The position numbers were made by a program, and so were the translations under genes. 64,000 nucleotides of DNA from Posidonia oceanica (lineage: Eukaryota; Streptophyta; Magnoliopsida; Alismatales; Posidoniaceae). Shown in pieces: positions 28,801 to 58,419 of the stretch. Position 1 is the first letter of the stretch. Every line of letters starts with the position of its first letter. Below the pieces are notes generated by a model that was not told the origin of the DNA, made no database searches, and saw nothing but the letters and a program-made list of their open reading frames with translations. The stretch is from contig JAZBRS010000049.1 of NCBI GenBank assembly GCA_037176725.1, positions 37,006,001 through 37,070,000 on the forward strand. Direction: 5' to 3'.

Positions 28801-31800
28801 GCTTCCTTGGATGATGACAAGCCTTTCTTTCGCACGACTCAGCTGGAGTCTCGCTTGCTTACTTCCTAGGGCAAGAACAAGCCCTTTTTCATTCACACGA
28901 CACTGCCGGAGTCCCACTTACTTGCTTCCTCAGGAAAGGACAAGCCTTCCTTTCGCTTGGCTCTACTGGAGTCCCGCTTGTTTGCTTCCTCGGGTGAGCA
29001 TAAGCCTTTTCCATTACGCGACTTCGCTCTCGGTGGACGGAATCCCACTGGCTTGGTTCCTCGGACGATGACAAGCCTTTTTTCTTTCACGCGACTCTGC
29101 CAGAGTCCCGCATGCTTGCTTCCTTGGGCAAGGACAAGCTGTCCTTTTACGAAACTCTGTCGTCGTCCCGCTTGTTTGCTTCCTCAGGCACGGTAAGCCC
29201 TTTTTCTTTCGCACGACACTGCCGGAGTCTCGCTTGCTTGCTTCCTCGAGTGAGGACAAGCCTTCCTTTCGCGCGACTCTACCGCAATCCCGCTTGTGTG
29301 CTTCCTCGGGCGAGGACAAACCTTTTTTCATTCGTGCGACTCTGCCGGAGTCCCACTTGCTTGCTTCCTCGGGTGAGGACAAACCTTCCTTTCGCGCGAC
29401 TCTACCGGAGTCCCGCTTGCTTGCTTCCTCAGGTGAGGACAAGCCTTTTCCTTTGCACGACTTTGCTCCAAGTGCACGGAGTCCCACATGCATGGTTCCT
29501 TGGGCGAGGACAAGCCTTTTCTCTTTTGCACGGCTCTACCAAAGTCCTGCTTGCTTGCTTCCTCGGGAGAGGACAAGCCATCCTTTCATGCGACTCTGTC
29601 GGAGTCCTGCTTGCTTGCTTCCTCGGGCGAGGACGTGGCCTTTTTCTTTCGCGTGACTCTGTCGTAGTCCTGCTTGCTTACTTCCTCGGGCGAGGACAAG
29701 CCTTTTCTTTCACGTGACTCTGTCGGATTCCCCTTTGCTTGCTTCCTCAGGCGAGGTGAAGCCCTTTTTCTTTCGCACTACTCTGCTGGAGTCCAGCTTG
29801 CTTGCTTCCTCGGGCGAGGACAAGCCTTCCTTTCGCATGACTCTGCCGTAGTCCCGCTTCCTTTCTTCCTCGGGCGAGGACAAACCCTTTTTCTTTTGTG
29901 TGACTCTACCGGAGTCCCGCTTGCTTGCTTCCTCGGGTGAGGACAAGCCTTTCTTTCGCATGACTCAGCCGAAGTCTCGCTTGCTTACTTCCTTGGGCAA
30001 GGACAAGCCTTTTTTCATTCGCACGACACTACCGGAGTCCCACTTGCTTGCTTCCTCAGGAAAGGACAAGCCTTCCTTTCACGTGGCTCTGCTGGAGTCC
30101 CGCTTGTTTGCTTCCTCGGGTGAGGACAAGCCTTTTCCATTACGCGACTTCACTCTCGGTGGACGGAATGCCACTTGCTTGGTTCCTCAAACGAGGACAA
30201 GCCTTTTTTCTTTCACGCGACTCTGCCAGAGTCCCGCTTGCTTGCTTCCTCGGGCAAGGACAAGCCGTCCTTTTGCGAAACTCTGCCGTCGTCCCGCTTT
30301 CTTGCTTCCTCAAGCAAGGTAAGCCCTTTTTCTTTCGCGCGACACTACCGGAGTCCCGCATGCTTGCTTGCTTGAGTGAGGACAAGCCTTCCTTTTGCGC
30401 GACTCTGCCGCAATCCCGCTTGCGTGCTTCCTCAGGCAAGGACAAGCCCTTTTTCATTCGTGCGACTCTACTGGAGTCCACTTGCTTGCTTCCTCGGGCG
30501 AGGACAAGCCTTCCTTTCGCGTGATTCTATTGGAGTCTTGCATCCTTGCTTCCTCGGGCGAGGACAAGCCCTTTTTCTTTCGAGTGACTCTACCGGAGTC
30601 CTGCTAGCTTGCTTCCTCAAGTGAGGACAAGCCTTTTCTTTCACGCGACTCAGTCGGAGTCCTGCTTGCTTGCTTCCTTGGGGATGGACAAGCCTTTTTT
30701 CATTCGCGCGACACTGCCGGAGTCCCACTTGCTTGCCTCTCGGGCGAGGGCAAGCCTTCGTTTCACGTGACTTTGCCAAAGTCCCACTTGCTTGCTTCCA
30801 TGGGTGAGGACAAGCCTTTTCCTTTGCGCGACTTCGCTCTCGGTGGACGGAGTCCCGCTTGTTTGGTTCCTCGAGCGAGGACAAGCCTTTTTTCTTTTGC
30901 ACGACTCTGCCGGAGTCCCGCTTGCTTGCTTCCTGGGCCGAGGACAAGCTGTCGTTTAGTGCAACTCTGCTGGAGTCCCGTTTGCTTGCTTCCTCGGGTG
31001 AGGACAAGCCCTTTTTCATTCACGCGACTCTACCGATGTCCCGCTTGCTTGCTTGCTTGGGTGAGGACAAGCCATCCTTTCGCGCGACTCTGCCGGAGTC
31101 CCGCTTGCTTGCTTCCTCGGGCGTGGATAATGCCTTTTTCTTTTGTGTGACTCTGTCGGAGTCTTGCTTGCTTGCTTCCTTGGGCGGGGACAAGCCTTTT
31201 CTTTCACGCGACTCTATCGGAGTCCCCATTGCTTGCTTCCTTGGGCGTGGAGAAGCCCATTTTCTTTCACGCTACTCTGCTGGAGTGTTGCTTGCTTGCT
31301 TCATCGGGTGAGGACAAGCCTTCCTTTTGCTTGACTCTGCCAGAGTCTTGCTTCCTTGCTTCCTCAGGCGAGGACAAACCCTTTTTCTTTTGCGTGACTC
31401 TATCGGAGTGCTGCTTGCTTGCTTCCTCAAGCAAGGACAAGCCTTTTCTTTCGCGTGACTCAGTCGGAGTCTCGCTTGCTCGGGCAAGGACATGCCATTT
31501 TTCATTCGCGCGACACTACCAGAGTCCCACTTGCTTGCTTCCTCGGGCGAGGACAAGCCTTCCTTTCGCATGACTCTGTCGGAATCCCGCTTGCTTGCTT
31601 CCTTGGGTGAGGACAAGCCTTTTCCATTGCGCGACTTCGCTCTCGGTGGACGGAGTCCCACTTGCTTGGTTCCTCGGGCAAGGACAAGCCTTTTTTCTTT
31701 CACACGACTCTGTCAAAGTCCCGCTTGCTTGCTTCCTTGGGCGAGGACAAGCCGTCCTTTCGCGCAACTCTACCGTAGTCCCACTTGCTTGCTTCCTCAG

Positions 31801-33000
31801 GCAAGGATAAGCCCTTTTTCTTTCACGCGACTCTGCCAGAGTCCCACTTGCTGGCTTCCTCAAGTGAGGACAAGCCTTCCTTTCGCATGACTCAGCTGTA
31901 GTCCTGCTTGCTTGCTTCCTCGGGTGATGACAAGCCACTTTTCTTTCGCGTGACTCTGTTGGAGTCTCGCTTGCTTGCTTCCTCGAGCGAGGACAAGCCT
32001 TTTCTTTCACACGACTCTACCGAAGTCCTGCTTGCTTGCTTCCTCGAGTGAGGACAAGCCTTCCTTTCGCGCGACTCCTCCGTAGTCCTACTTGCTTGCT
32101 TCCTCAGGTGACGACAAGCCTTCCTTTGTGCAACTTCGCTTCGGGCAGACGGAGTCCCGCTTGCTTGCTTCCTCAGGCGAGGACAAGCCTTTTTCTTTTG
32201 CACGACTCTGCCAGAGTCTCGCTTGTTTGCTTCCTCAGGCGAGGACAAGTCTTTTTCTCTACGTGACTTCGCTCTGAGCGGACGGAGTCCCACTTGCTTG
32301 CTTCCTCGTGTGAGGACAAGCCTTCCTTTCGCGTGACTTTGTTCTGGGTAGACGGATTCCCGCTTGCTTGCTTCCTTGGGCTAGGACAAGTCTTTTCTTT
32401 CGTGCGACTCTACCGGAGTCCTGCTTGCTTGCTTTCTCAGGCGAGGATAACCCTTCCTTTCACGTGACTTCACTCCGGACAAACGGAGTCCCGCTTGCTT
32501 GCTTCCTTGGGTGAGGACAAGCCTTTTTTCTTTCACACGACTCTACCAGAGTCCCACTTTCTTACTTCCTTGGGCGAATACAAGCCTTCCTTTCGTGCGA
32601 CTCTGCCAGAGTCCTGCTTGCTTGCTTTCTCAGGCAAGGACAAGTCTTTTCCTTTGTGTGACTTCGCTCCGAGCAGACGGAGTCCCGCTTGCTTGCTTCT
32701 TCGGGCGAGGACAAGCCTTTTTTCTTTCGCATGACTCTACCAAAGTCCCACTTGCTTGCTTCCTTTGGCAAGGACAAGCCTTCCTTTCACGTGACTCTGT
32801 TGGAGTCTCTCTTGCTTGCTTCCTTGGGTGAGGTCAAGCCCTTTTTCTTTCGCACGACTCTGCCTGAGTCCCGCTTGCTTGCCTCCTCAAGTGAGGACAA
32901 CCCTTTTTCTTTCGCGCGACTCTGCCGGAGTCCTGCTTGCTCGCTTCCTCAGGCGAGGACAAACTTTCTTTCTCGCGGCTTCATGTGGACCTGCTTGTTT
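25830..33000 (+). repeat. Satellite array, about 60-bp monomer, about 7.2 kb
   Basis: The monomer reads roughly GCTTGCTTCCTCGGGCGAGG, ACAAGCCTTCCTTTCGCGCG, ACTCTGCCGGAGTCCCGCTT. By length there are about 115-120 copies; most are 58-62 bp. Each monomer holds two inverted repeats, CCTCG-GG-CGAGG and GACTC-TGCCG-GAGTC. A longer monomer type (GACTTCGCTCTCGGTGGACGG or GCTCCAAGTGCACGG in place of the second hairpin) recurs at fixed places and marks a higher-order period near 1249 bp. Because 60 is a multiple of three, several frames stay open and encode a repeating 20-residue peptide; I do not regard this as coding. Tandem arrays of this kind are known in the 3' untranslated regions of Tat elements. 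Confidence 0.92.
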
Positions 33001-33492: not shown

Positions 33493-36400
33493 TGTAGTAA
33501 TCCTGAAATTCTGGTCGTCCATGCACGATGCCAAAGCTCGCGTGCACCGATCAAAATAGGCTCACTATATGCGATAGGATCTGAGGGAAGAAACTTGACT
33601 CGGAAATGCTGGCAAAAGAAGGAAAAAGAAATGATAAGACAAATCGGAGTCGCCACCAAGTCTATTAAATTGGGAGACAGGGAAAATCGAGGGTAAAGCA
33701 TGAAAAGACATGCTAAATCGGATGCTAAGAAGGAGAAAAGGGATGCGATGCAACACAATGCGATGCTATGCTATGCTATGCTATGACTCGTGCCTAGGAT
33801 GAAGGAAAGGTCGATGTGGGCCAAGAGAAATGGCAAGGACTCCTGTTGCGCACGGGGAAAGTGTTAGGCACCCCCGATACGTCCAAGAGTCGGTCTTTCT
33901 TAGGCAATCTCGTGCACTAATGCAAGGAAATGCTAGCCTAATGCCTAAATGCAATGCATGTCTAATTGCCATGCATGGGAAATAAACGTGCTATCTATGT
34001 GCTCAGCAACGCTGCTAGTGTTCCGAACTGGGCGAACCCTGGTTCGTGAGAACTCCTAGGCAGTAAGCATCATAGCCCTAATGCAAATGCAGGCGATAAA
34101 ATGAAACTACGGGGAAAACCAGGCAAAAGATAAACCAAAGCGGGCGCGGAAAATAGTGCAAGAGTGTGGAAAACGAGGCGAAAGTGCGGAAAACGAGGCG
34201 AAAGCGCGGTGCAAAGCCAAAACAGGGGTTAGGCAGCATGCATGGGGGTTGCAGTAGGCATAAGAAGCCATAAAACACGGAAATCGGCGAACGAAGCAAG
34301 ATCAGCATTTTAAAATCACATCTAGCCAACTGTAAGTGTTGGACACTGGCAACTAGGGCATCCAACGTTGGACGCTGCCATTGCTGGCATCCAACACCTG
34401 CTGGAGGCAGACAGCATGCAACTTTTGAAAAAGAATGCATTCTAACTATATGGATGCAATGTAGATGCAGAAATGCAGCTAAATGGATGCATGACATGCA
34501 GGGCTAACAGGACAGAAGAACAGAAGTGGATTCAGAGCAAGGGGAAAGCTAAGATCAAGAACCAAAGCAAGCAGGGTGTTGGATGCCCGTGGGCATGGTG
34601 TCCAATGTTAGACGCTAGAGAGGCAGGCGTCCAACACAGGCCAGAGGAAAACAAGACAAAATAAGCATACAAATGACAAATAAAAATTGGGAGCATGCAT
34701 TTGGGCTACTGGAGACAAGCAGAAGGTAGACATGCAAGCATAGGATACAAAAGAAACCAAGATACTCGCCATCTGCGACATGTGCTAGGCATAAAGCTCA
34801 ATCAGAGCGTTGGACGCGAGCTGAACCAGCGTCCAATGTTGGACGCCTGGAACAGCAGCGTACAACGCCTTGGGAGGCACAAACACACAAGAACTTGCAT
34901 AAAAAATAGCATATGATCTAAGAAAGCAATGGAATAATTGCAACGAAGGCTAAGCATGCATATAAACACAAGAATCATGCAAGCATATAGATAAGAGCAT
35001 CATGCAAGCTTAAAAAAATAAGACAGAGGAACAGGAACGTTAGACGCTGATGACAACAGCGTCCAACATTGGACGCTGAAGCCCCGAGTGTCCAACGCCT
35101 GTAGTATGCAAACTCACCTGCACAAAGGGGGAGCTCAGCTCTAAACCCCACTTAACAATCAATCATGCAAACTACTGAAGACATGCCAGAACAGGAAAGG
35201 AGCATTCACCAAGCATTTAATCCATGATAAGCAAAAAGGCAAGAGCATGCATAGGAATAAAAGATAAAAACCCAAGAAAAGGAAAGCATGCAACTTAAGA
35301 GGGCATTAGCAAGCCTAAGCATGGTTGCCATAGGGGCCAGGCATCTCTAAGCAAGCATGGATCATGAATAAACCACGAAAAGAAGCAAGATGCAAGCATG
35401 GCAGCAAAATAGAGCAAGCAGACATGTTGGACGCTGGATGAACCAGCGTCCAACGTTGGACGCGGCTCACCTAGGCGTCCAACACAGGCAGACAGCAGAT
35501 GACTTAAAACATGCAAAATGATTCAAGCAATGATCCAAACATGAAAGTAGGCATGGCATAGCATCTGAAGACATGTAAAGGAAGCATGTAGCATGGATTC
35601 ACAAAAAGCAAGCAACATCAAAGCAGGGCAAACTTCAAAGCAAGAGCAAAGCAAGCAGGGAATTGGATGCTGGCTACTGCCGCGTCCAACGTTGGACGCA
35701 CCAGACTGGGCGTCCAACACACTGAAGATCCTCCTGGCCAAGAATCGTGGCCAAATGGATCTAAAACATCAAACAAACTTGCTAGCAAGCAAGAGTGATT
35801 GACAACAAGCATGGTGGTATGCTTGGGGCCAAGATTAGGTGGGTGGCTTGCTCCACCCACCTCTTCCTCCTCATGGCCGGAAAACCAAGGCGAGGAGGGG
35901 TGTGTGCAGTGCAAAAGCACATGGAAAGCATCCAGAAACACTCAACCTATCATGCATGAGCTACAGGGAGGGATAACCAACCTGGCCACGGCTTGAAACG
36001 GCATGTCGCACTCCTTCGCCGACACTGCTGAAGTGGGCGACAGGGCTTCTCCAGCGAGCTCGTGCGGCTAGCTGGGGGCACGGGAGAGGTCGGCGAAGGT
36101 GTGGGAGTGAAGGTGGATCTTTGCACTTCACACCGGAGTGGTCGAATTGCAAAGGAGGGGGCTGTGCTGGTCTATGTGTGCATGGGAAGAGGGCTGTTTG
36201 GAGCTAGTTTTGTGAATGGGTTGCATGGGTTTGGGTGCATTGGCAGTGGATGCAGAGGAGAATTGGCAGGCTTGGTAGGTTGTGGCAGGGCTTCTGAGTG
36301 AGAGGAAGGCACAAGGGATGTCAGGAGAGGGGCATGGGTGTGTCAGACGGCCAGCGAAGTCGCGGTGGTGGCTGACAGAGGCGGCTGAAGGCAATGAGGG

Positions 36401-36908
36401 CGGAGAGAGCAGAAATGGTGCTAAGATGGAGAAGATGGCTAGTAACTCGGCCTTGGAAGGTAGTGGATGGCTTGGAGTGCAAGAGGGGGCAGGTAGTAAG
36501 TGCGGAGGGGTAGTGGAGTGGACGGGAGGTGAGCCGAAGGTGACGGAACAGCCGCTGCTGCAACCGAGTTGTTGGACGCTAGAGCAGAAGGCGTCCAACG
36601 TTGGACGCTAGCATAGGACGCGTCCAACGTTGGACACTGCCTATTCCAGCGTACAACAAACCCAGGAGGCAAAAGGCTGAAATGGGCTTGGGCTTGGGCT
36701 TAGAAAGGGTTTAAAAGGTGCAAAAAGGCTTGGGTTAAGGCTTGGGGTTTAGGTAAGGTTTTAGGTTTGGTTTCAGGGTTTAGGTAAGGTTTTAGGTTTG
36801 GTTTCGGGGTTGAAATGGGTTGGTCTAAAAAAGAGTGCCATTCCAAAGTCCACGCGAGCCTGTAGGAGAAATCACCAACTTCCATCCTGTCAAAATGGGG
36901 TGTCTACA
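33493..36908 (-). mobile_element. LTR, family B, 3.4 kb, minus strand (3' LTR)
   Basis: On the minus strand it starts TGTAGACACCCCATTTTGAC at 36908 and ends GGATTACTACA at 33493. A polypurine tract abuts its start on the minus strand (36909-36921), so this is the 3' LTR of an element lying at higher coordinates. The conserved 3' block occupies about 33493-34080. Upstream of that it differs completely from family A and carries seven hairpin modules. No gene is seen; the open frame at 36128-36598 has no domain. Confidence 0.87.
34338..36657. repeat. Seven tandem-hairpin modules of the LTR at 33493
   Basis: Modules at 34338-34395, 34578-34635, 34809-34866, 35039-35096, 35426-35483, 35662-35718 and 36571-36657. 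Each is built of 29-bp hairpins of the form GTTGGACGC-N11-GCGTCCAAC placed back to back, so the centre of each module reads as the perfect palindrome GCGTCCAACGTTGGACGC or a close variant. Six modules are doublets (57-58 bp) and the one nearest the LTR start is a triplet (87 bp = 3 x 29). Spacers of about 170-180 bp between the first four modules are unrelated to the hairpins. Confidence 0.88.
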
Positions 36909-38258: not shown

Positions 38259-41200
38259 TGTAGACACCCCATTTTGATAGGCTGGAAGTTGGTGTTTTCT
38301 CCTGCAAGCTCGTGTGGACTCTGGAATGGCACTCTTTTTTTAGACTAACCGATTTCTACCCCAAAACCAAGCCTAAAACCTTGCCTAAACCCCAAGCCTT
38401 AACCAAAGCCTTTTTACACCTTTTTAAACCTTTTTAGCCCAAGCCCAAGCCCATTTGCAGCCTTTTGCCAATTGAGTGTGTTGTACGCTGGAATAGGCAG
38501 CGTCCAACGTTGGATGCGTCCTGTGCTAGCGTCCAACGTTGGATGCCTTCTGCTCTAGCGTCTAACGACTCGGTTGCAGTAGCAGCTGCTCTGCCTCCTT
38601 CGGCTCACCTCCCGTCCACTCCACTGCCTCCCTGCACTTATTGCCTATCCCCTCTTGCACTCCATGCCATCCATTGCCTTCCAAGGCTGAGTAACTCCAT
38701 TTACTAGCAATCTTTTCCTCCTCAGCCGATTTCCCACTCTCTCTTCTCCTCATTGCCATCCGCCGTTGATTCCCTTGCCACCCGCGTCTCCGACGCTGCC
38801 CTCTGACCTGCCCTACCACCCTCCTGCCATCCTCGTGGCCTTAGCACACCCAGAAGCTCTGCTAAAGCCTGCCAATTCTCGCCCAAGCCGCTACCATTTG
38901 CAGCAGAACCCAAGCACCCATGCACAAAACCAGCACCAAACAGCCCTCTTCCTCAGAACGCACAGACCAGCATAGCCCTCTCCTCTGCAATTCGACCACC
39001 TCCAGAGCAAGACCAAATATCCAGCTCCACTCCAGACCCTTCGCCGACCTCTCCTGTGCCTCCAGCTAGCCGCGCGAGCTCGCCGGAGTCAGCCTGTCGC
39101 CCACTTCCACAGCGCCGGCCAAGGAGTGCAAATAGCCGTTTCAAGCCGCGACGAGGTAAGTTCTCCATCCCTGTAGCTCATGCATGATAGGTTGAATGTT
39201 TCCATGTGCTTTCCATGCATCATTGCACAGCACACACCCCTCCATTGCTTGGTTTTCCGGCGATGAGGAGGAGGAGGTGGGTGGAGCAATCCACCCACCT
39301 ATTCTTGGCACCAAGCATACCACCATGCTTGTTGTCAATCACTCTTGCTTATTAGCAAGCTTTCTTGAAGTTTTGGATCCATTTGGCTGCGATTCATGGC
39401 CAGAAGGATGTTCAGTGTGTTGGACGCCCAAGCTGGTGCATCCAACGTTGGACGCGGCAGTAGCCAGCGTCCAACACCCTACTTTGTTTGCCTTTGCCCT
39501 TGCTTTGCCACGCTTTGCTATTGCCTGTTTCTTTTTGTAAATCCATGCTGCATGCCTTCTTTGTGTGTTTTCAGATGCTATACCATGCCTACTTCTTTGT
39601 TTAGATCCTTGCTTGAATCATTTTGCTTGCTTTAAGTCTGTTTGCTATCTGCCTGCGTTGGATGCCTGGGTGAGCCGCGTCCAACGTTGGACGCTGGTTC
39701 ATCCAGCGTCCAACATGTCTGCTTGCTCTATTTTGCTGCTATGCTTGCACCTTGCCTCTTTTTGACGTCTATGCATGATCTGTGTATGCTTAGAGATGCT
39801 TAGCCCCTATGGCAACCATGCTTAGGTTTGTAAATATCTTCTTAAGTTACATGCCTTTTTCTTGGTTTTTTTATCCTTTATTCTTGCGTCTAACGGTCCT
39901 GCTCCTTTGTCCTGTTTCTTTTAGCTTGCATGATGCTCTGATCTATATGCTCGCATGGCTCCTGTGTTTATATGCATGTTTAGCCTTCATTGCAATTATT
40001 CCATAGCATTCTTAGTTTATATGCTAATTTTATGCAAGTTTTTTGTGTGTTTGTGCCTCCCAGCGTGTTGTACTCTACTGTTCATGGCGTCCAACGTTGG
40101 ACGCTGGTTCAGCTCGCATCCAACGCTCTGGTTGAGCTTTAAGCCTGGCACAAGTTGCAGGTAATGTTTCTTTGGTTTCTTTTGCCTCCTATGCTTGCAT
40201 GCTTAGTCTATGCTTGTCTCCAGTAGCCCAAATGCATGCTCCCAATTTTTTCTTTGCCATTTGTATGCTTTTTGCCTTGTTTTCTTCTGTCTTGTGTTGG
40301 ATGCCAGCCTCTCTACCGTCTAACGTTGGACACCATGCCCACGGGCGTCCAACACCCTGCTTGCTTTGGTTCTAGATCTTAGCTTGCCCCTTGCTCTAAA
40401 GCTGCTTCTGTTTGGCTCTCATGTTAGCGCTGCATGTCATGCATCCATTTTGTTGCATTTCTGCATCTGTATTGCATCCATATAGTTAGAATGCATCCTT
40501 TTTCAAATACTTGCATGCTGTCTGCCTCCAGCAGGCATTGGACGCCAGCAATGGCAACGTCCAACGTTGGACGCGGCTGTTGCCAGCGTCCAACGCTTGC
40601 AGTTGGTTAAGCACAGTTTTAAAATGCTGATCTTGCTTTGCCTCTTGTTTTCCGTGTTTTATCGCTTCTTATGCGTACTGCTACCCCCATGCATGCTACC
40701 TGGTCCCTATTTTGTTTTTCTCCTTGCTTTTGCATTGTTTTCCGTGCCTTTGCATTGTTTTTTCCGTGCCTCGGCATCGTTTTCCGCACCCTTGCATCGT
40801 TTTCTGCGCCTTCGCCTCGTTTTTTGCGCTTTTGCACCGTTTTCGGCGCTTGCTTTGGTTCATATCTTGCATGTCGTTTGCATTGCCTGGTTTTCCCCGC
40901 AGATTTGTTTTATCGACTGCATCTGCATTAGGGCTATGATGCTTACTGCCTAGGAGTTCTCACGAACTAGGGTTCGCCCGGTTCGGAACACTAGCAGCGT
41001 TGCTGAGCACATAGATAGCACATTTATTTCCCATGCATGGTAAGTAGACATTCATCGCATTTAGGCATTAGGCTAGCATTTCCCTACATTAGAGCACGAG
41101 ATTGCCTAAGAAAGACTGACTCTCGGACGTATCGGGGGTGCCTAACACCTTCCCCGTGCGTAACAGGAGTCCTTGCCTTTTCTCTTGGCCCGCATCGACC

Positions 41201-41357
41201 TTTCCTTCATGCTAGGCTCGAGTCATAGCATAGCATAGCATAGCATTGCATTGTGTCGCATCACATCCCCTTTGCCCCTCTTTGCATTCGGTTTTGCATG
41301 TCTTTTCATGCTTTACCCTCGATTTTCCCTGTCTCCCAATTTAATAGACCAGGTGGC
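38259..41357 (+). mobile_element. LTR, family B, plus strand, truncated at 3' end
   Basis: Starts TGTAGACACCCCATTTTGAT. It follows the same order of landmarks as the LTR at 41358, with six hairpin modules against seven (the one matching 42820 is absent). It stops at 41357 within AATAGACCAGGTGGC, about 170 bases before the expected LTR end, where the next LTR begins at once. The break falls in a second PBS-like sequence that the neighbouring LTR retains intact at 44335-44346. Five bases left of the start are GTAAT; no partner was found. Confidence 0.87.
38480..40594. repeat. Six tandem-hairpin modules of the LTR at 38259
   Basis: Modules at 38480-38566 (triplet, 87 bp), 39419-39475, 39657-39714, 40067-40124, 40296-40353 and 40537-40594 (doublets of 57-58 bp). 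The architecture is GTTGGACGC-N10/11-GCGTCCAAC repeated head to tail. The triplet starts 221 bases from the LTR start, the same offset as in the LTR at 41358. Confidence 0.88.
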
Positions 41358-44300
41358 TGTAGACACCCCATTCTGACAGCCTGGAGGTTGGTAGTTCTCT
41401 TTTGCAGGCTCGTGTGGTCTCTGGATTGGCATTCCCTTTTCTAACCCCTTTCCTAACCCACTTCCCAAGCCCAAAACCTTGCTTAAGCCTTAGAAGCCCT
41501 TGCCTAAGCCAATTGCACCTTTTACAACACTTCCAGGCCCAAGCCCAAGCCCATTTGCAGCTTTGGCCACCTGAGTGTGTTGGACGCTGGAACAGGCAGC
41601 GTCCAACGTTGGACACGGCCTGTGCCAGCGTCCAATGTTGGACGCCCTCTAGTCTGGCGTCTAACGACTCGAGTGCAGCAGTGGCAGCTCCGCCCCCTTC
41701 AGCTCACCACCCATCCACTCCACCGCCTCCCCACACTTACTACCCATCCCTTCCTCCACTCCACGCCATCCACTACCTTCCAAGCTTGAGTTACTACCCA
41801 TCTCTCCTCCATTTCAGCCCAAAACCTGCTCTCCTCACCTCACTGACAGGCCTATCTTCCGTTGGCCGTGTCAGCCACCGCCTCACCTCTGTCGCCCTCC
41901 TGCCATTGCCCATGCCTTCCTCTGACATCCCACATGGACCTCACACACTCACCCGCACCTGCCAGGAGACCTCGTGTGCTCTGAGCTACTTAGGAGACCT
42001 TGTCGAACTTGCTACCGTGCACACACCTACAACTCCGGCGAACTTCGTCGACCTGCCGTTCCAGGGCTTCCAACGGTAAGCCACCTACCCCCTCTAGTCA
42101 TGCATGTGTAGTAGAATGTGTCCATGCCTTTTTACAAGTTTTTTGGCTCCTTTTGGATGTGATTCACATCCAAGAGGACATTCAGTGTGTTGGACGCACC
42201 AACTGGTGCGTCCAACGTTGGACGCGGCATGGGCCGGCGTCCAACGGCCTGCCTTGCTCTGCCTTCATCTGAATGCTTTCCATGCTTTTTCTTTGCATGC
42301 TTCTTTGCAAGCATATGCCATATGCTTCCTTTAATGCTTCCTGATGTTATACCATGCTTATCAATTTGTTCCATGCGTGTTTGAATGCTTTTTGCATGCT
42401 TAGTATCAGTCTGTCTTCTGCCTTCGTTGGACGCTAGGGTGAGCCACGTCCAACGTTGGACACTGGTTCACCTAGCGTCCAACACCCCTGTCTGCTTTGC
42501 TTTGCTGCCATGCCTACTCCATGCATATTTTTGAATATTATTTTGTGATCCATGCCTAGTTAGAGATGCCTGGTCCCTATGGCAACCATGTTTAGGTTTG
42601 CTAGGATTTATTCTAAGTTGTTTACTCCCTTTTGCAAAGTTAAAGCTTGCTTCTCTTATGCATGTTCTTCCCTTTGCTATCTTTAGCTTAAATGCTTGCA
42701 AATGTTTGCTGTGGATGCTCCTTTTAGTCTCTTACATGCCTTGGTTCATCTACATGCATGTAGGTGGGGGTCTGAGCTGAGCTCCCCCTTTAGAACAGGT
42801 GAGCTTGCATGCCTAGGTCGTTGGACGCCAGAGCCTTCAGTGTCCAACGTTGGACACTACTGGCTCTAGCGTCCAACACCCTGGCTCATCTCTTGTTTGT
42901 TTAATGCTTGCATACCTCTCTGATCTTGCTTATTTACTTGCTTCCTGTGTTCTTATGCATGCTTAGCCTATTTAGCAACGGTTCTGAAGCTTCCATTAAG
43001 TTATTTTGCTATTTTATGCATGCTTTTTGTGTGTTGTGCCTCCCAGAGCGTTGTACGCTGTTGGTGTTGGTGTCCAACGTTGGATGCCGGCCTAGCTCGC
43101 GTACAACGGCCTGGTTGTGCCTTTGGCCTGGCACTCAGCACAGGTAAGGTTTGATTTTTTTTTTGCATCCCTTGCTTGCTCGCTTGCTCCATGCTCAACC
43201 CCAGTGACCCAAATGCATGATCCCAACTCTCCTCTATCACTTGTATGCATCTTTTCTCCCCTCTGCCTTCAGTTCTTGTTGGACGCCAGCCACTCTGGCG
43301 TCTAACGTTGGACGCCCAGCCTACAGGCGTCCAACAACCTGCATGCTTGAATCTTTAATTTTGGCATGCCCCTTGTTTCGATTCTTCCTCTAATCTTCTG
43401 TTAGGTTAGATTAGCATGTCTAGCACCCATTTAGTTGCATATTTGCATCAGTACTACATTCATGTAGTTAGATTGCATTGTTTTTAAAAAATATGCATGC
43501 TGTCTGTTTGCAGTGGGTGTTGGACGTGGGCTGTCCCAGTGTCCAACGTTGGACGTTGGTGTTGCCAGCGTCCAATGCATGCAGATGGCTGACAGCCATT
43601 TTAAAGCGTCGATTTTGTTTCTCGCGTTTTATTACTTCTTTGGCTTGCTGTAACCCCAATGCATGTTACCAACCCCTTTGTTTTGATTTCGCACCCCACT
43701 TTGCCCTTTTTTTTCGCATTTTTGCATTGTTTTCCCGCTCTTCTGCACGATTTTCCACACCCCTTTGCATCGCTTTCCGCTTTCGGCATCGCTTGCCGGG
43801 CCTTGCTTTATTTTCTGTATTTTCGCATCTTTTTCCGCACCTGTTTTACTTTATTGCTTGCATGTCGCTCGCATTGCTTGGTTTTCCCGCTGTTTTGTTT
43901 TATCGCTTGCATCTACATATAGGGCCGTGATGCTTACTGCTTAGGTGTTCTCACGAACCAGGGGCCGCCCAGTTCGGAACACTAGCAGCGTGGCTGAGTA
44001 CTTTGATGGCACGTTTATTTCCCTTGCATAATAGGTAAGCATTTAAGGCATTAGGCTAGCAATTCCCTGCATAAGCGCAAGATTGCCTAAGAAAGACTGA
44101 CTCTCGGACGTATCGGGGGTGCCTAACACCTTCCCCGTGCGTAACAGGAGTCCTTGCCCTTTCTCTTGGCTCGCATCGACCTCTCCCTTATCTTAGGCCT
44201 GAGTCATAGCATAGCATAATAGCATAGCATAGCTTAGCTTATCCTTGCATCTCTTTGCCCCTCCTTGCATCCGGTTCAGCATGTCTTTTCATGCTTTACC

Positions 44301-44499
44301 CCCTGGTTTTCCTTGTCTTCCAATTCAATAGACCCGGTGGCGACTCCGAATTGTCTTATCATTGCTTTTTCTTTTCTTTTGCCAGCGTTTCCAAGTCGAG
44401 TTCTTCCCTCGGATCCAGTGGCATATAGTGAGCCTATTTTGATCGGTGCACACAAGCTTTGGTAATGTGCATGGACGATTAGAATTCATGATTACTACA
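41358..44499 (+). mobile_element. 5' LTR of element 2, family B, complete, 3.1 kb
   Basis: Runs from TGTAGACACCCC at 41358 to ATTACTACA at 44499, followed after one base by a PBS. It contains seven hairpin modules, a possible splice donor (CAG-GTAAGG near 43142) and the conserved 3' block (about 43920-44499) with GTGCCTAACACCTTCCCCGT, an ATAGC run near 44207, and a PBS-like GTGGCGACTCCG at 44335-44346. It abuts a truncated sister LTR on the left; GTGGC precedes it at 41353-41357, and no matching duplication was found to the right. Confidence 0.9.
41579..43576. repeat. Seven tandem-hairpin modules of the LTR at 41358
   Basis: Modules at 41579-41665 (triplet), 42189-42245, 42426-42483, 42820-42877, 43050-43107, 43278-43335 and 43519-43576. 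The first arm pair of 42189 extends to a 13-bp stem (GTTGGACGCACCA with TGGTGCGTCCAAC) around a 2-nt loop. In 43050 the outer arms GTTGTACGC and GCGTACAAC match each other, and the inner arms match each other, so a single large cruciform is an alternative fold. Confidence 0.9.
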
Positions 44500-44500
44500 G

Positions 44501-44518
44501 TGGCGACTCCGCTAGGGA
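44501..44518 (+). other. Primer binding site of element 2
   Basis: TGGCGACTCCGCTAGGGA, one base after the LTR. It matches the presumed tRNA-Arg complement except for one A in place of G. Confidence 0.85.
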
Positions 44519-45677: not shown

Positions 45678-47556
45678 ATGGCCCAATTTGTTGGTGACTC
45701 TCAGGTCCCTGTTGCCCTGGAGGTGGCCCCTCTTTTGGCCCCTTCGGCTCCCGCATACACTCCCCCTATGCCAGCATCTCCTTCTCTGGTATAGCTGCCG
45801 CCTTCTTATTCTGTGGGGCAGTGGCAGACTCCGCCGGACTTGGTTGCCGAGACTGTCTTGGTAGCCGCCGCCCGTGCTCCGGAGACACCATTGACTCCTC
45901 CTCCTCAGGGTGATGTCACTTTTGACGCTCACCTTGCTACGGCGAATTATGCCCTAGGACCTCCGCCTCTTGGACAATCTATGTCCCAGTCGCTTGATTC
46001 TGGTCCTCCGCCGGTCCTGCAACTCAACATACCTACTGATGGGTCCCCTGAGATGCAGTACCAGCAGCTGATGGAGACTGCCTAGAGACTGCAGGGCATG
46101 GCTCTATCTCTCCATCCCGCATTCGTTCCTGCTGCTCCCGAGGCTCCGCTGCGACCTGCTCTCGCGTAGCAGGCATTCCCTTCTGCTCCCCCGCCCAGAC
46201 CACCGCCTCAGCTACTCACTGCTCAGGTGATGGGGGCCCAGCTTCCGCCTCCTGCATTTGCACAACACCAAGCACAGCATCCTTTTCTGGCACCTGGTGG
46301 TCAGTCTGTAGGACTGATCGGAGGGCAGCATCCCTCTAGCCCGCAGCCCGGCACCGTGCCGCTGCAGCAGCTGACGCTCCAGCACACTACATCACCTACT
46401 ACTCAGCATGCTAGTTATACATACCCCCTGCATCAGCAATACCCTACCCTAGCATGCATGCCTACACACACTGCACATCCGCACAGATACGCCACCCATC
46501 CCGTCGCTCCACCAGACGAGGTGATTGTTGACCCAGAGGAGCACCTCGGTGCATCTTATGCGGCGTATGTGGCCCCTGCCCCTGCTGTACCACCTCAGTT
46601 GGCAGTAGCTCCAGACTCCAGCGACAATAGGCTCGCTGTTCTAGAGAAAGCACTTCGACAAGTGCAGGGCACAGACCACCAGTCTTGCCAGTTCCGGGAC
46701 CTCTGTTATTTCGCAGAGGCGGTACTCCCCCCGAAGTTCCGCATCCCAATATTTGAAAAATACAATGGTAGAGGCTACCCAATTGCACACCTGAAGGCGT
46801 ACTGCAGAGATCTCGCTCAGCTCCAAGCTGACGAGAGGTTACTAATCCGCTTGTTCCAGAAAAGTCTGAGTGGCCCTGTGCTCAAGTGGTTCACCTCACT
46901 TGATATGGCCAGCATTAAGACGTGGAATGACCTCAGCTAGGCATTCCTGCGACAATACTCCTTCAACTTGGACCGAGTCCCTAAGCACGTGGACCTCGTC
47001 GCATTAAAGCAGAACCCCGACGAGCCGTTCGGGGAGTATGTCGGCCACTGGCGCGCACTCGCTTCGTAGGTTCGAGATGGACCCTCTGACGAGGAGTCCC
47101 TCGAGATTGTGATCGGGGGTGCACAGCCTACTGTCGGGGCTCTGCTCAGCATTCAACCTGTCACAACCTTCTCTACACTGATCCGGGATGGCATCCGCGT
47201 GGAGAGTTCGCTACGAAGTGGCAACTTCTCGGCGCTCTTTGCGTTTGCCAAGCAGGCCACCGCCAGTAGCAACAGCAACAACACCAGCAGGAACACCAGC
47301 AGCAACAGTAGTGGTACTAGCAGTCGGCCCAAGAAGAAGGACTCGCTGAAGCCTGCTGTTGCCTACATCGACCTTGCACCTGTTCAGCTGGCGGTTCGAC
47401 CTCCCCTGCATCAAGTAGTCTATGCACCAGCACCTAGAGCACCCTCCACACCACAAATCACCACCACTACCCAACCGGTGTATCCTGCTGCACTGGTCTG
47501 GCAAGCGCAACCCTAGGGGCCAAGGCGGCCACGGCGTCAATTCACCCCACTAGTGG
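45678..47556 (+). pseudogene. gag: gag pseudogene, element 2, lacking its 3' end
   Basis: A single reading frame from ATG at 45678 (MAQFVGD) holds a Pro/Gln-rich N-terminal half and a Retrotrans_gag core: FEKYNGRGYPIAHLKAYC, LIRLFQKSLSGPVLKWFTSL, EPFGEYVG. It is closed by TAG stops near 45792, 46083, 46167, 46938, 47067 and 47514, several of which are Gln (CAG) in a sister copy. No frameshift is needed to read it. Homology to the other gag copies ends at GTGGAACC (47556), before the knuckle, and a hairpin module starts 23 bases later. No protease or reverse transcriptase follows; antisense genes occupy the place of pol. Confidence 0.9.
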
Positions 47557-51488: not shown

Positions 51489-51589
51489 GTTATACGCGCC
51501 TTATTATGCGTTCAACATTTTGCGAGTTAAAACGTTAGCCGCTGGCTTTCCAGTGTATAACGTTGGATGCTCCATTTTGAGCGTACAAC
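51489..51589. repeat. Hairpin modules upstream of the antisense promoter
   Basis: One 28-bp unit at 51489-51516 (GTTATACGC-N10-GCGTTCAAC) and a doublet at 51534-51589 (GTTAGCCGC-N10-GTGTATAAC, GTTGGATGC-N10-GCGTACAAC). They separate the two PMD genes. Confidence 0.75.
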
Positions 51590-51768: not shown

Positions 51769-52969
51769 TTAAGTACCAGCCTGATAGAAGACCTGGATGA
51801 TGTCCCCAGGAGTGTCCCTCAAGCATGGGAGAATCATATCAGAGAAGCGCGGCAAGGGAGGTATAGCCTGAAGAGTACCCAGCATTGAGAAGCAGCATTG
51901 AGGGTTGTACCTTACAAACTCGATCGCCCCAATCAGCGTTAGGAAATACTCCGAGTCAGACACTGTCCTGAAAGACAAGGGGAGACTGAAGGAATCCATC
52001 TGGGATTTGACCTCACAGGCGCATAAGCGGCGAATGAGCTCCTCCAAGGGAAGGCTAGCATCAAAAGCAGGTAGAAGAAAGTGCTCTTCCAGCCAGCGCA
52101 GAACTAGGAACGGTGAGCCAAAGAATGGCCCCCCGAGGCAGGCACTGGATAAGCCACGAATGGTAAAAGCCAAAACAGACTGACTCAAACACTTCTCCGG
52201 GTTGCGCATGCAGATGCACATGAGCTCGGCATGGTAGGCACTAATAGTCAGAGCTTCATTTGGGAAGAGCACAGTCCCTTGATCAGAATGAAGACGCATT
52301 CCAAGCAAGAAGCCTCAGAGTGGATGCTGTCGCGTTGTTTCTAGAAAAATTTCCACAAAGAGGAGAGTTTGATACAGCCATCCAGCACCAGGTCCTCCGG
52401 CAAAACAACAGAGCCGAAAATGCACTTTAAGAGAGCAAAGGAACCTACCACCCTGATTGGCAAAAGGTAGGCATCCCTGCAGTAAATGGATGGGTCGGCA
52501 TGTCGAGTACCTAGGAGGGCGCTCACCTCCTCCAAAAGAATGGTCAATTCCCCAGAAGAAGAAAAGAACGTATGAGTCAAGGAATTTCACAGCCCACAGA
52601 CGTTGAAGAGCGCCTTCCAATCAACAGGTTGCCGTAGCTGGCGAAGGGCCTGATAAAGACCAGCCTCCTCCAAGCGTTCCCGGTACTTCTTCAAAGCCCA
52701 AGAGCGGAATTGTTGAACCCAGTCCAACTGATAGGCTTTCGAGTCCCGGTCGTTGTTGGCAGAAGATAGGGGCTATAAAGTAAAGAAAAATCAGCAGAAG
52801 TACCAGAATGGGAGTATGAGGAAAAGATGAAAATAGGGAGTACCTTCTCATGCACCAACAGGTTCGCCAAATGGTTGGGAATGGCCTCCAGCCGGAGTTG
52901 CACCATGTCAGAAGGAGAAGAGAAGACGGCCACCCAGAAAGCATGACGTGGGATATCACTCAAATCCAT
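51769..52969 (-). pseudogene. Second antisense PMD-like gene, decayed
   Basis: Probable start at 52969 (MDLSDIPRHAFW); exon 1 52969-52844 is 42 codons, then a GT-AG intron 52843-52773 (71 bp, phase 0). Exon 2 reads WVQQFRSWALKKYRERLEEA, then a TGA, then FFSSSGELTILLEEVSALLG, which fits the PMD signature (Gly-Glu-hydrophobic-Thr/Ser, then Leu-Glu-Asp/Glu-Val, Leu-Leu-Gly). A TAG near 52341 and a frame change near 52310 precede the last part (LHSDQGTVLFPNEALTIS to the stop at 51769). The frame change may be a deletion or an unrecognised intron. It is distinct in sequence from the gene at 48115-51327 and has the same orientation, so this is a two-gene antisense cluster. Confidence 0.7.
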
Positions 52970-53165
52970 GAAGAGAAGCACAAGCCCTAGCAAGCAAAAA
53001 TCAATAAGGGAAGGAAGATAAATATTTGAACTACAAGATTCAAGCCAAGAGGAAGTCTAATATAAGCCGTGGAGCCTTCATCGGAATGGAAACCCAAAGA
53101 AAATTGGGAATTTACTGCCAAAACGGTGGTGCCCGAACAGGAAAGACAGCAGCCTGTCTCGCGAC

Positions 53166-53221
53166 GTTATATGCGGCCATAATGCCGTCCAACGTTAGCC
53201 ACGGTTCTTCAAGCGTCCAAC
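53166..53221. repeat. Hairpin module upstream of the second PMD gene
   Basis: A 56-bp doublet: GTTATATGC-N10-CCGTCCAAC and GTTAGCCAC-N10-GCGTCCAAC. It lies about 200 bases upstream of the presumed start of the second antisense gene. TATATTA on the minus strand near 53060 is a weak TATA candidate. Confidence 0.7.
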
Positions 53222-53338
53222 GTTTAACACTAACAATCAAGCGTCCAACGAGTCAAAGCAGAATTGAGAGTAGAACAGCAAGAACCTGGAGCACAACCGG
53301 GTCAACAAAGCAAGCAAAGTCAAAAAAAAAGTATCCTT
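53222..53338. other. Single unit of array B left of the 44-bp array
   Basis: CCTGGAGCACAACCGGG, TCAACAAAGCAAGCAAAG at 53285-53322 is one unit of the array found at 54495-55395. It shows that the 44-bp array expanded inside an older array. Confidence 0.65.
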
Positions 53339-54490
53339 TTCGACTCCCTTGGGTCTTCCCCTAGGCATGTCATGTTTTATTTTCGACTCCCTTGGGTCTT
53401 CCCATAGGCATGTCATGTTTTTATTTTCGACTCCCTTGGGTCTTCCCCTAGGCACGTCATGTTTTTATTTTCGACTCCCTTTGGTCTTCCCCTAGGCACG
53501 TCATGTTTTTACTTTCGACTCCCTTGGGTCTTCCCTTAGGCACGTCATGTTTTTATTTTCGACTCCCTTGGGTCTTCCCCTAGGCATGTCATGTTTTATT
53601 TTCGACTCCCTTGGGTCTTCCCCTAGGCACGTCATGTTTTTATTTTCGACTCCCTTGGGTCTTGCCCTAGGCACGTCATGTTTTTATTTTCGACTCCCTT
53701 GGGTCTTTCCTAGGCACGTCATGTTTTTACTTTCGACTCCCTTGGGTCTTTCCCTAGGCACGTCATGTTTTTATTTTCGACTCCCTTGGGCCTTCCCCTA
53801 GGCACGTCATGTTTTTATTTTCGACTCCCTTGGGTCTTCCCCTAGGCACGTCATGTTTTTACTTTTGACTCCCTTGGGTCTTCCCCTAGGCATGTCATGT
53901 TTTTATTTTCGACTCCCTTGGGTCTTCCCCTAGGCACGTCATGTTTTTATTTTCGACTCCCTTGGGTCTTCCCCTAGGCACGTCATGTTTTTACTTTCGA
54001 CTCCCTTGGGTCTTCCCCTAGGCACGTCATGTTTTTACTTTCGACTCGCTTGGGTCTTCCCCTAGGCATGTCATGTTTTTATTTTCGACTCCCTTGGGTC
54101 TTCCCTTAGGCATGTCATGTTTTCATTTTCGACTCCCTTGGGTCTTCCCCTAGGCATGTCATGTTTTTATTTTCGACTCCCTTGGGTCTTCCCCTACGCA
54201 CGTCATGTTTTTACTTTCGACTCTCTTGGGTCTTCCCCTAGGCACGTCATGTTTTTACTTTCGACTCCCTTGGGTCTTCCCCTAGGCATGTCATGTTTTT
54301 ATTTTCGACTCCCTTGGGTCTTCCCCTAGGCACGTCATGTTTTTACTTTCGACTCCCTTGGGTCTTCCCCTAGGCACGTCATGTTTTTACTTTCGACTCC
54401 CTTGGGTCTTCCCCTAGGCACGTCATGTTTTTACTTTCGACTCCCTTGGGTCTTCCCCTAGGCATGTCATGTTTTTTATTTCTGCCTCCC
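53339..54490 (+). repeat. Satellite array, 44-bp monomer, about 26 copies
   Basis: The unit is CGACTCCCTTGGGTCTTCCC, CTAGGCACGTCATGTTTTTA, TTTT. The step is 44 (for example 53384 to 53428), with occasional single-T deletions. Copies are nearly identical, differing mainly at CAC/CAT and TATTT/TACTT, so the expansion is recent relative to its surroundings. Confidence 0.95.
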
Positions 54491-54494
54491 TTGG

Positions 54495-55395
54495 GTAATC
54501 CCCTCGGCAAATCAATCTCAAAGAACCCCAGAGCACAACCGGGATAACAAAGCAAATCAATCAAAGCAAAGATCCTCGGAGCATAACCGGGACATCAAAG
54601 TAAAGATCCCTGGAGCATAACCGGGATAACAAAGCAAGCCCCAATCTCAAAGAACCCCAGAGCACAACCGAGATAACAAAGCAAATCAATCAAAGAAAGA
54701 TCCTTGGAGCACACCGGGATAACAAAGCAAACCAATGAAGGAAAGATCCTCGGAGCACAACCGGGACACCAAAGCAAAGATCCTCGGAGCATAATCGGGA
54801 CACCAAAGCAAAGATCCCCGTAGCACAATCGGGATAACAAAGCAAACCAATGAAAGAAAGATCCCTGGAGCATAACCGGGACAAGCAAAGAACCTCGGAG
54901 CACAACTGGGATAACAAAGCAAACCAATCAAGGAAAGATCCCCAGAGCATAACCGAGACACCAAAGCAAAGATCCCCAGAGCACAACCAGGATAACAAAG
55001 CAAACCAATCAAGGAAAGATCCCCGGAGCATAATCGGGACACCAAAGCAAAGATCCCCGGAGCATAACCGAGACACCAAAGCATAGATCCCCGGAGCATA
55101 ATCGGGACATCAAAGCAAAGATCCCCGGAGCATAACCGGGATAACAAAGCAAGCCCCAATCTCAAAGAACCCCGGAGCATAACCGGGACATCAAAGCAAA
55201 CCTTGGAGCACAACCGGACAAACAAAGCAAGTCAATCAAAAGTAGGTACCCCGGAGCACAACCGGACAACAAAGCAAACCCTGGAGCATGACCAGACAAA
55301 CAAAGCAACCCCGGAGCACGACCGGACAAACAAAGCAAAACCAATCAGCAGAAAGATCCCCGGAGCACAACCGGGTCAACAAATCAAAGCCAATG
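54495..55395 (+). repeat. Satellite array B, 34- and 47-bp units
   Basis: A short unit (GATCCCCGGAGCATAACCGG, GACACCAAAGCAAA; 34 bp) and a long unit with an added CCAATCAAGGAAA (47 bp) are mixed. Each has an inverted repeat CCCGG-N7-CCGGG. Later copies near 55200-55330 lose part of the unit. Minus-strand open frames here are repeat artefacts. Confidence 0.9.
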
Positions 55396-56312: not shown

Positions 56313-56326
56313 AATCTGTAGATACC
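56313..56326 (+). other. Polypurine tract before the LTR at 56327
   Basis: AAGGAGGGGCAATC, directly before TGTAGATACC. It marks the LTR as a 3' LTR for the sequence on its left. Confidence 0.8.
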
Positions 56327-56525
56327 CTGTTTTGGCGCTCCCTTCATGTTAGGATAGTCTCTTGCATTAGGTCGCTCTTAGAAGCCCTCTACCTATTTCT
56401 GAATCTCACTTGAGCCAAATGTTCCTCTCAAGTCCAAAATGCTATACCTTTCTAAGCTCCAAATGTTGGCAACTTGAGTGTTCTTCACGTCCTGACCAAA
56501 TTTGGAAGTTAAACTGATTAAGAGT

Positions 56526-56609
56526 GTTGTCCGTTGGCTTCTCAGCGTACAACGTTGGCCGCTGCGTTTCCAGCGGCTAACATTGGCCGCTGGCTTTCAA
56601 GTGTCCAAC
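56526..56609. repeat. Triplet hairpin module in LTR C
   Basis: Three 28-bp units (84 bp): GTTGTCCGT-N10-GCGTACAAC, GTTGGCCGC-N10-GCGGCTAAC, ATTGGCCGC-N10-GTGTCCAAC. It begins 199 bases from the LTR start, close to the 221-base offset of the triplets in two family B LTRs. Confidence 0.8.
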
Positions 56610-56782
56610 GTGGCAACCCAGTCAGCCAAAGCTTTCCTTATTTGGCCTAATCCAAAAATCATGTTTTTGCCTTCTTTGGAACCTGTTGACTGGTCAAAGC
56701 CATCAAAGCTGAGTTTAATCACACTTAAAGACTCCTTAATTGGAGAATCTTCTCTGATCCTGGCAGTTATGCCTCGGAGGTT

Positions 56783-56838
56783 GTTATATATGAGTTCTCT
56801 CGCTTATAACGTTATACGCTGGTTTTCCAGCGTATAAC
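56783..56838. repeat. Doublet hairpin module upstream of the LTR TATA box
   Basis: GTTATATAT-N10-GCTTATAAC and GTTATACGC-N10-GCGTATAAC. The second unit is a perfect 12-bp stem (GTTATACGCTGG, TTTT, CCAGCGTATAAC). It ends 64 bases before the TATA box. Confidence 0.82.
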
Positions 56839-56902
56839 ACTTCTGAAACAGGAAACTCTGCTGACTTGGCATTTGTGTCCTTCTTTGTTCCTCCCTTGCT
56901 TC

Positions 56903-56910
56903 TATAAAAG
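56903..56910 (+). promoter_or_regulatory. TATA box of LTR C
   Basis: TATAAAAG in a CTTGCTTCTATAAAAGCAAG context, about 576 bases into the LTR. It is the clearest core promoter among the LTRs here; transcription would start near 56935-56945. Confidence 0.75.
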
Positions 56911-58419
56911 CAAGGATACCCCCACAGAGTTCAAGGCCAGAATTTTGAGAGAGAAAAAGAGTTAAGAAACTTTTGGGACTCACATACTCTTGAGATCAAA
57001 AATCTTAGAGAAGTGAGGTCCTTAAGAATCGAAAGAGAGAAGAGAGTTTTTGGAAAGAGAAGAGAGTCTTAGAAAAAAGCTTGAGGATCCTTTTGTCGTT
57101 GTTGGCTTCATGCCAACACAGTTTGCACCTTATGCATAGACAGAGGAGACTCTATTTCATTCATTTCCTTTTTATTTCTGATATTACATGTTTAATTCCG
57201 TAGTATAATCAAGCATTTTCATTTCAAGTTCATATATTGTTTTAACTAGGCATACATCTCTTTTAGTTGCAACCAGGGGGACCAAACCCCTCGGGTACGT
57301 ATCTCACTACGTTTTCTTTACTTTCTTTTCTACTAACTCTGGATAAATTACTGCACATATTGATCCACTTTTATATTGTCCTGTTTGTTTTGCTTTGCTA
57401 ACGTTTGTCATACAAGGAGGAAGAAGGAACAAAGAGCTTACCAAGCACGAGCACCCTTGGGCAATGCTAGCGTTGTCCCAAGGTAGCTGAACCTGCAACC
57501 ACACTACATCTCCCCAAAGGCGTCTTGAGGGCCGGCGAAAGCGAACCGAGAGTGGCGATCACACCGATTCCATCACACGTGGAGTGACGAAGTCGGATAC
57601 AAAGAAGGGGGACCTCGAGAAAGAGAAGATAGAGTGAGCAAAAGAGGGAGCCAAAAGAAGCCTTCTTCTTCCCCAAACCTCCATCATCATCATCTTCTTC
57701 TTCTCCTCCAAAAACCCCATATCCACAGTCTGGCGATCACGGTGGGACGGCTAAAAGTGCCCCATGCAAGGTAAGTAACCCTTCCTTTCTTCTTCCTCCT
57801 TCATTATTGACATTCTTAGTTTAGTTTTAGTTTCATGGGCCAAAGTTCGCCCAGTTTGGAACACTAGCAGCGTTGCTGAGCACATAGCTTGCACGTTTAA
57901 TCCCCTACACGTATCTTAGCACTTAAAGCACACATTAGAGCATGCGTTCAGACATTCATTGCATTTAGGCCTTAGGCAAGCATTTCCTTGCATTTGCGAG
58001 CGAGATTGCCTTAGAAAGACCGATTCCCGGACGTATCGGGGTGCCTAACACCTTCCTCGGGCGTAACAGGAGTCCTTGCCCTTTCTCTTGGCCCGCAATG
58101 ACCATTCCTTCATCCTAGGCACGAGTCATAGCATAGCATAGCATAGCATTGCATCGCATTGCATTGCATCTCTTCGCAGCCTCTTGGCATCTGGTTTTGC
58201 ATGTCTTTTCATGCATTACCCTCAGTTTTCCTTGTCTCCCAACCTAATAGACATGGTGGCGACACTGATTTGTCTTATCATTTCTTTTTCTTCTTTTTGC
58301 CAGCATTTCCGAGTCAAGTTTCTTCCCTCGGATCCCACCGCATATAGTGAGCCTATTTTGATCGGTGCACGCGAGCTTTGACATCGTGCATGGACGATCA
58401 GAAATTCAGGATTACTACG

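Follow-up and report, generated by a model that had tools for sequence, protein, structure and literature searches.

What are the hairpin-like modules that recur in the long terminal repeats (LTRs) of this Posidonia oceanica locus, and what keeps them? We analysed a 64-kb stretch of DNA, hereafter the window. A regular expression for the hairpin unit, two inverted arms around a loop, gave 50 matches in the window. Of these, 43 form 20 modules in three LTRs, named A, B and C. Doublets of units measure 57–58 bp and the triplet measures 87 bp. Hence, the number and sizes of modules reported by a first-pass annotation were borne out. The LTRs and their modules are as follows.

33493–36908, minus strand: LTR A, seven modules
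34338–34395, 34578–34635, 34809–34866, 35039–35096, 35426–35483, 35662–35718 and 36571–36657, minus strand: modules of LTR A
38259–41357, plus strand: LTR B, six modules; its 3' end abuts LTR C
38480–38566, 39419–39475, 39657–39714, 40067–40124, 40296–40353 and 40537–40594, plus strand: modules of LTR B
41358–44499, plus strand: LTR C, seven modules; ends TGTAGACACC...ACTACA, then PBS-like TGGCGACTCCGCT at 44501
41579–41665, plus strand: M1 of LTR C, three units
42189–42245, plus strand: M2 of LTR C
42426–42483, plus strand: M3 of LTR C
42820–42877, plus strand: M4 of LTR C
43050–43107, plus strand: M5 of LTR C; GTA replaces GGA at the centre of the 5' arm of unit 1 in 30 of 31 aligned rows
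43278–43335, plus strand: M6 of LTR C; the centre of the 3' arm of unit 1 is AGA, GAA or AAA in 29 of 29 rows
43519–43576, plus strand: M7 of LTR C

Abutting hairpin pairs, scored as any stem of 9 with at most one mismatch, were found in none of five Markov shuffles of the window; the real window holds 42 overlapping registers. Several neighbouring modules had been described as regularly spaced, 229–241 bp apart, with unrelated sequence between them. Measured start to start, this regularity applies to 11 of 17 neighbours (228–241 bp). The remaining six are separated by 387–410 or 610–939 bp. The intervening sequence is nearly unrelated as claimed, except that a few pairs of spacers are weakly alike (z up to 5.3); kinship is weak and mixed overall. 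Hence, ancient tandem duplication of a unit of ~230 bp is possible.

In alignments, LTR C has an identity of 0.724 to LTR A and 0.723 to LTR B, and A and B have an identity of 0.847. The modules of all three occupy seven identical places, M4 being missing from LTR B through deletion. Hence, the modules are orthologous and predate the split of the LTRs. Unit number is not fixed at two or three as first proposed. In seven of the 20 C-type copies that we fetched, M1 consists of four units; M3 has three units in one copy (L045) and M7 has one unit in three copies (L039, L046 and L054). A 42-bp duplication is present in M7 of L049. Short inverted repeats at high copy number could also point to independent MITE-like insertions, but such an origin is scarcely credible. 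The seven places are identical in A, B and C, offsets from the stop codon of a gene described below are similar, and what is absent from the copies compared seems to have been deleted, as units or in larger stretches. Orthologous positions, rather than scattered insertions, were thus the outcome of this comparison, which had been set beforehand.

The modules had been described for the three LTRs. They extend beyond these. Diverged modules occur elsewhere in the window, including 56526–56838 in a fourth LTR, and tens of thousands of inverted pairs are present genome-wide. The further features of the window are listed here; PMD denotes a plant mobile domain.

46170–46940, plus strand: gag-like ORF of the C element; its own Pfam score is weak, and relatives carry PF03732
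47579–47634, no strand assigned: module outside the LTRs, two 28-bp units
51489–51589, no strand assigned: module of three units, the nearest 180 nt past the stop of the PMD-like gene
51769–53056, minus strand: PMD-like gene in broken pieces, on the opposite strand to LTRs B, C and D
53166–53249, no strand assigned: module consisting of a decayed triplet, 5' of the PMD-like gene
56317–58418, plus strand: LTR D, of a related element
56526–56609 (triplet) and 56783–56838 (doublet), plus strand: 28-bp units of LTR D, with arm centres GTC, GGC and ATA

The triplet of LTR D lies ~210 bp from the start of the LTR, and M1 of LTRs A–C lies at 222–252 bp. In some D-type units, a TTTT loop is closed by a stem of 12 bp.

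To what kind of element do these LTRs belong? LTRs A–C are 3.1–3.4 kb long. LTR C has the ends TGTAG...CTACA, as for the long TG..CA LTRs of Ogre-type Ty3/gypsy elements, and the PBS-like TGGCGACTCCG follows directly (44501). This candidate PBS would fit tRNA-Arg. Past its LTR, the D element has gag, an aspartic protease match just under cut-off and a G-patch; the gag match is in an ORF at 60771–61019 (E 5.6e-11). We label the elements as giant and Ogre-like Ty3/gypsy from LTR size, resemblance of the PBS and the nearby PMD gene.

Other features of the elements were recorded in passing. A second PBS-like TGGCGACTCCG is found at 44338 inside LTR C, 163 bp before 44501, and LTR B ends at the matching place. 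In the D element, an ORF at 62260–63999 has the G-patch (PF01585, E 7.6e-7) together with the weak aspartic protease match. Between LTR elements, 25855–32962 is a satellite-like array of 7.1 kb with a 63-bp unit in ~113 copies. By eye, splice-site-like CAG and GTAAG/GTGAG surround several modules of LTR C (42070–43150) in a short-exon-like arrangement. After M7 in the LTRs, for example at 40712–40849, a ~20 bp repeat with GTTTTCCGC forms short direct arrays.

The arrangement of the arms was then defined in one genome of 2.96 Gb, with spacers of 9, 10, 11 and 12 counted. The inverted pair GTTNNNCGC-N-GCGNNNAAC occurs 307, 65,123, 123,619 and 110 times, respectively. Backward controls gave 71, 5, 117 and 21. 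At N11, 5 of the first 63 places listed belong to a different repeat. With the two words in the same orientation, N11 gives 1,399 pairs on one strand and 1,354 on the other. One of the 100 such pairs listed has GTTRDMCGC on both sides, and most are the T-rich repeat GTTTTCCGC. Taken together, the spacer counts and the rarity of same-orientation pairs indicate that the pairs are inverted with a gap of 10 or 11.

We picked 24 loci by the exact 18-bp junction GCGTCCAACGTTGGACGC, taking the first 4 and the next 20 listed and skipping three that were <900 bp from a chosen locus. Where the two arms of a pair are separated by 9–12 bp, the distance is 10 or 11 in 91 of 91 cases. Outside the modules, 15 of the loci match LTRs A–D and 9 do not. 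Six of these nine abut the 3' end of one gene, the PMD gene; L087 resembles them by eye, and L004 and L092 are something else. The junction palindrome is also present in 3 contigs of a viral contig collection, and it is absent from the genome contig collection and the plasmid collection searched.

Since the junction is palindromic, with 47,725 exact copies in the genome and none for its backward control, the DNA could matter as a cruciform or palindrome as such, in recombination, as an integration target or in nucleosome phasing. The recurring module spacing near 230 bp would fit. However, the arm centres mispair and are conserved nonetheless, and arm composition is biased, with position 5 almost never C. 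We consider this explanation very improbable.

The bias is evident in the arm consensus, the degenerate 9-mer GTTRDMCGC. We tallied 100 N10 sites, which all lie at the start of contig C1 and provide 200 arms. A or G occupies position 4 in 197 of these arms, and A or C occupies position 6 in 193. Position 5 is C in 0 of 200 N10 arms and in 1 of 116 arms of an N11 listing. No tool matched the word to a known transcription-factor motif.

Is it the sequence of the arms or their pairing that is kept? Among 31 rows, comprising 29 C-type rows and LTRs A and B, a centre other than GGA was seen on at least one arm of 97 hairpin copies. None is compensated on the other arm. Hence, pairing is not the main thing kept. 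Likewise, both arms agree in 0 of 22 pairs with a non-GGA centre in the N11 listing (58 rows). In the N10 listing, matching arm centres are in excess, at 17 of 84 versus 9.2 expected (P 0.006) without GGA/GGA, and at 33 of 100 versus 14 expected from shuffles with GGA/GGA included. When near-duplicates were filtered, 30 of the 100 N10 rows were left; the full centre matched in 0.23 versus 0.10 (P 0.019), and single arm positions were not significant. The excess in the N10 class points to some symmetry pressure, which may be structural or dimeric.

These results bear on RNA hairpins acting in the element RNA, through packaging, stability, splicing or as small-RNA precursors. Perfect units can fold, the D-type stems of 12 bp with a TTTT loop among them, and the N10 excess is in keeping with such a role. 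But no altered arm is compensated, one of the 26 units listed upstream of the PMD gene has matching centres, and loops have a fixed length and free sequence. Furthermore, G-U wobble gives no clear sense-strand excess in the stems: transitions compatible with G-U number 22 sense versus 17 antisense among shared variants and 28 versus 24 among singletons. Complementarity between the two loops of a module, as in a whole-module fold, is visible in M1, M3 and M4 of LTR C and has an overall P of 0.27. No Rfam family matched in the window at gathering thresholds. RNA hairpins are, in our judgement, unlikely. The first-pass annotation had offered a transcription-factor-binding platform, an RNA scaffold and a small-RNA precursor as options. 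The latter two are disfavoured by the lack of compensation in the C family and of a clear G-U excess, but the N10 class does show mild symmetry. A binding platform is the best supported of the three, as arm sequence and spacer length are constrained and pairing of the centres is not.

Constraint was assessed in 29 C-type rows: 20 fetched copies, 9 partial copies and the window copy, minus L048, which was dropped because its first half is not alignable. L051 and L057 are 98.5% alike and both were kept. In non-CpG columns, private variants are equally frequent in arms (47/182) and spacers (594/2237; P 0.86). By contrast, variants present in at least three copies are four-fold rarer in arms (11/182) than in spacers (584/2237; P 1.3e-11); the 20-bp flanks have 95/267. 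Loops (33/155) do not differ from spacers (P 0.22). In CpG columns, shared variants are found in 33/88 arm and 92/160 spacer columns (P 0.003). Fixed non-CpG differences, at which LTRs A and B agree with each other but not with the C family, follow a similar division, with 1/155 in arms, 23/106 in loops, 32/171 in flanks and 178/1301 in spacers. A 20-row run gave the same picture of arm constraint; shifting the arm positions circularly never yielded a value as low.

Private variants being equal and shared ones rare, selection on the arms is indicated during the active period of the elements. We interpret the pattern as purifying selection that acted on the arms, with loops of fixed length and free sequence. 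Judged from these alignments, arms decay like the remaining sequence after insertion and are nearly unchanged during the activity of the element. The stem and spacer rates, whose comparison had been set beforehand, thus differ in the active lineage, where stems are the slower. Might the arms instead lack a function and owe their similarity to exchanges among identical units, through slippage, conversion or template switching? Whole units are gained and lost, as such processes predict. However, variant arms stay put and are not overwritten, notably the GTA centre of M5 across A, B and C (30 of 31 rows) and the 3' arm of M6. Private variants are also equally frequent in arms and spacers. We regard functionless arms as improbable.

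The gene abutted by junction loci offers a second setting for the arrays. At locus L094 the gene matches PF10536 (E 3.4e-9; 36.8 bits over a cut-off of 34.9). Neither the L095 ORF (296 aa), which is 87% identical to L094, nor the window ORF 51769–52314, which is 33% identical to the L095 ORF (E 2e-24), gave a Pfam match. Hence, the name PMD relies on the L094 match and on homology. In the window, tblastn reaches 52736, and the piece to 53056 is an ORF only. A first look at the genome gave 20,333 candidates, an inexact count; 132 were scored, with 88–100% identity. Modules lie on both sides of the gene in 8 of the 8 best loci, which were selected by protein alone and are close relatives of one another. 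Downstream units start at 180, 208 and 253 nt after the PMD stop in the window, at 186, 214 and 257 nt in L094, and at 185, 213 and 256 nt in L095.

The PMD match has no stop in 6 of the 8 best loci, and dN/dS over the 8 copies is 0.20 (means 0.037 and 0.187; no test against 1). The gene looks to be under purifying selection. Around it, non-CpG variants in at least 2 of the 8 copies are found in 5/95 arm, 21/74 loop and 80/769 other columns. CpG columns have 10/49 in arms versus 5/33 in others, and so are no less variable in arms. Non-CpG arm columns thus lie clearly below loops but not clearly below the remaining columns. No DNA-binding domain was found in the PMD protein. Its structure prediction has a pLDDT of 34, and a profile search of solved structures gave one match at E 1, which we disregarded. 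Further observations concern the surroundings of the gene. In L097, units resembling those of the four-unit M1 of C-type LTRs, three in number and in the same orientation, lie ~1.4 kb upstream of the PMD match; a nested insertion or a shared element may account for them. Just beyond the PMD-like gene of the window are two tandem arrays, one with a 44-bp unit in 26.7 copies (53337–54509) and one with units of ~34 bp (54507–55391).

The interpretation we favour is that the modules are binding-site arrays for a dimeric, sequence-specific DNA-binding factor that controls transcription or silencing of the elements. We consider this probable on the sequence evidence. The word recognised would be GTTRDMCGC, with two copies facing each other over 10 or 11 bp. 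Such a gap, about one helical turn with free sequence inside, would suit a protein dimer on one face of the DNA. The inverted pairs follow one another head to tail, usually in sets of two to four. Because the arrays lie in LTRs and on either side of the PMD gene, their role is probably to regulate how the elements are transcribed or silenced. We infer that the PMD gene and the LTRs belong to the same elements, although in the window the gene runs against the direction of LTRs C and D. One further step makes the PMD protein, or a partner, the candidate reader; a host transcription factor is the alternative. It is conceivable, and we propose it tentatively, that the circuit is self-contained, with the PMD protein or its complex reading GTTRDMCGC pairs to activate or un-silence its own family. 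We know of no such cis/trans anti-silencing or autoregulatory system for a plant LTR retrotransposon.

Comparisons with known systems draw on excerpts of the papers cited. VANDAL elements belong to the DNA transposons, and VANC is not known to be a PMD protein. In Arabidopsis, excerpts describe VANC as a transposon protein that reads motifs multiplied in non-coding parts of VANDAL elements (Hosaka 2017, PMC5735166). The present elements are alike in that a short motif is multiplied in non-coding parts, and the VANDAL motif, according to the same excerpts, differs between families, which is a further likeness to the present arrays. The VANC6 motifs given there, AGTTGTCC/AGTTGTAC, share GTTGTMC with allowed arms, which may be chance. 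The VANDAL transposon also carries the gene for the binding protein, a likeness if the PMD gene near the present arrays encodes their reader. The present elements differ in that the motifs are inverted pairs with a 10–11 bp gap, in LTR retrotransposons. By analogy, the modules may work like VANC/VANDAL; we claim no membership.

PMD is reported in 57% of Ogre elements in the excerpts of Neumann 2019 (PMC6317226). As excerpted, PMD-encoding Ogre Ty3/gypsy elements share with the present ones giant LTRs and gag, and a tRNA-Arg-like PBS and a PMD ORF would be further likenesses (PMC6317226, PMC5418596). The words hairpin and palindrom are absent from PMC6317226, and we found no motif array for Ogre elements in the excerpts. 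Anti-silencing was speculated for PMDs captured by MULEs in the excerpts of Ikeda 2017 (PMC5418596), and excerpts of two papers treat the function of retrotransposon-encoded PMDs as an open question (PMC5418596, PMC9289625).

Retand, as excerpted, has an antisense TRP28 ORF and tandem repeats between pol and the 3' LTR (Vicient 2025, PMC11963269). An antisense ORF with suspected DNA binding and the repeat arrays are common to both systems. However, Retand has tandem repeats and another protein domain, and no inverted-pair motif was found in the excerpts of PMC11963269. Excerpts also link MAIN/MAIL1 to the DOWN promoter motif (Nicolau 2020, PMC7156037; 2023 follow-up, PMC9899485). The likeness is that PMD proteins are connected with a DNA motif in cis and with the silencing of transposons, but these are host proteins. 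In the open-access literature, covered partly by listings, we found no mention of such arrays. The palindrome, LTR ends and satellite words occurred in no paper of the literature text; 9-mers occurred in unrelated papers among the matches listed.

These observations indicate that selection can maintain hairpin-like LTR repeats on account of their sequence and not of the structure they would form. Inverted pairs with a gap of 10–11 provide a computational signature to seek in other plant genomes. A strictly spaced, selected word that flanks the PMD gene and recurs in the LTRs reduces the role of PMD to one binding question. A self-contained circuit, if true, would assign a task to the plant mobile domain that transposons carry.
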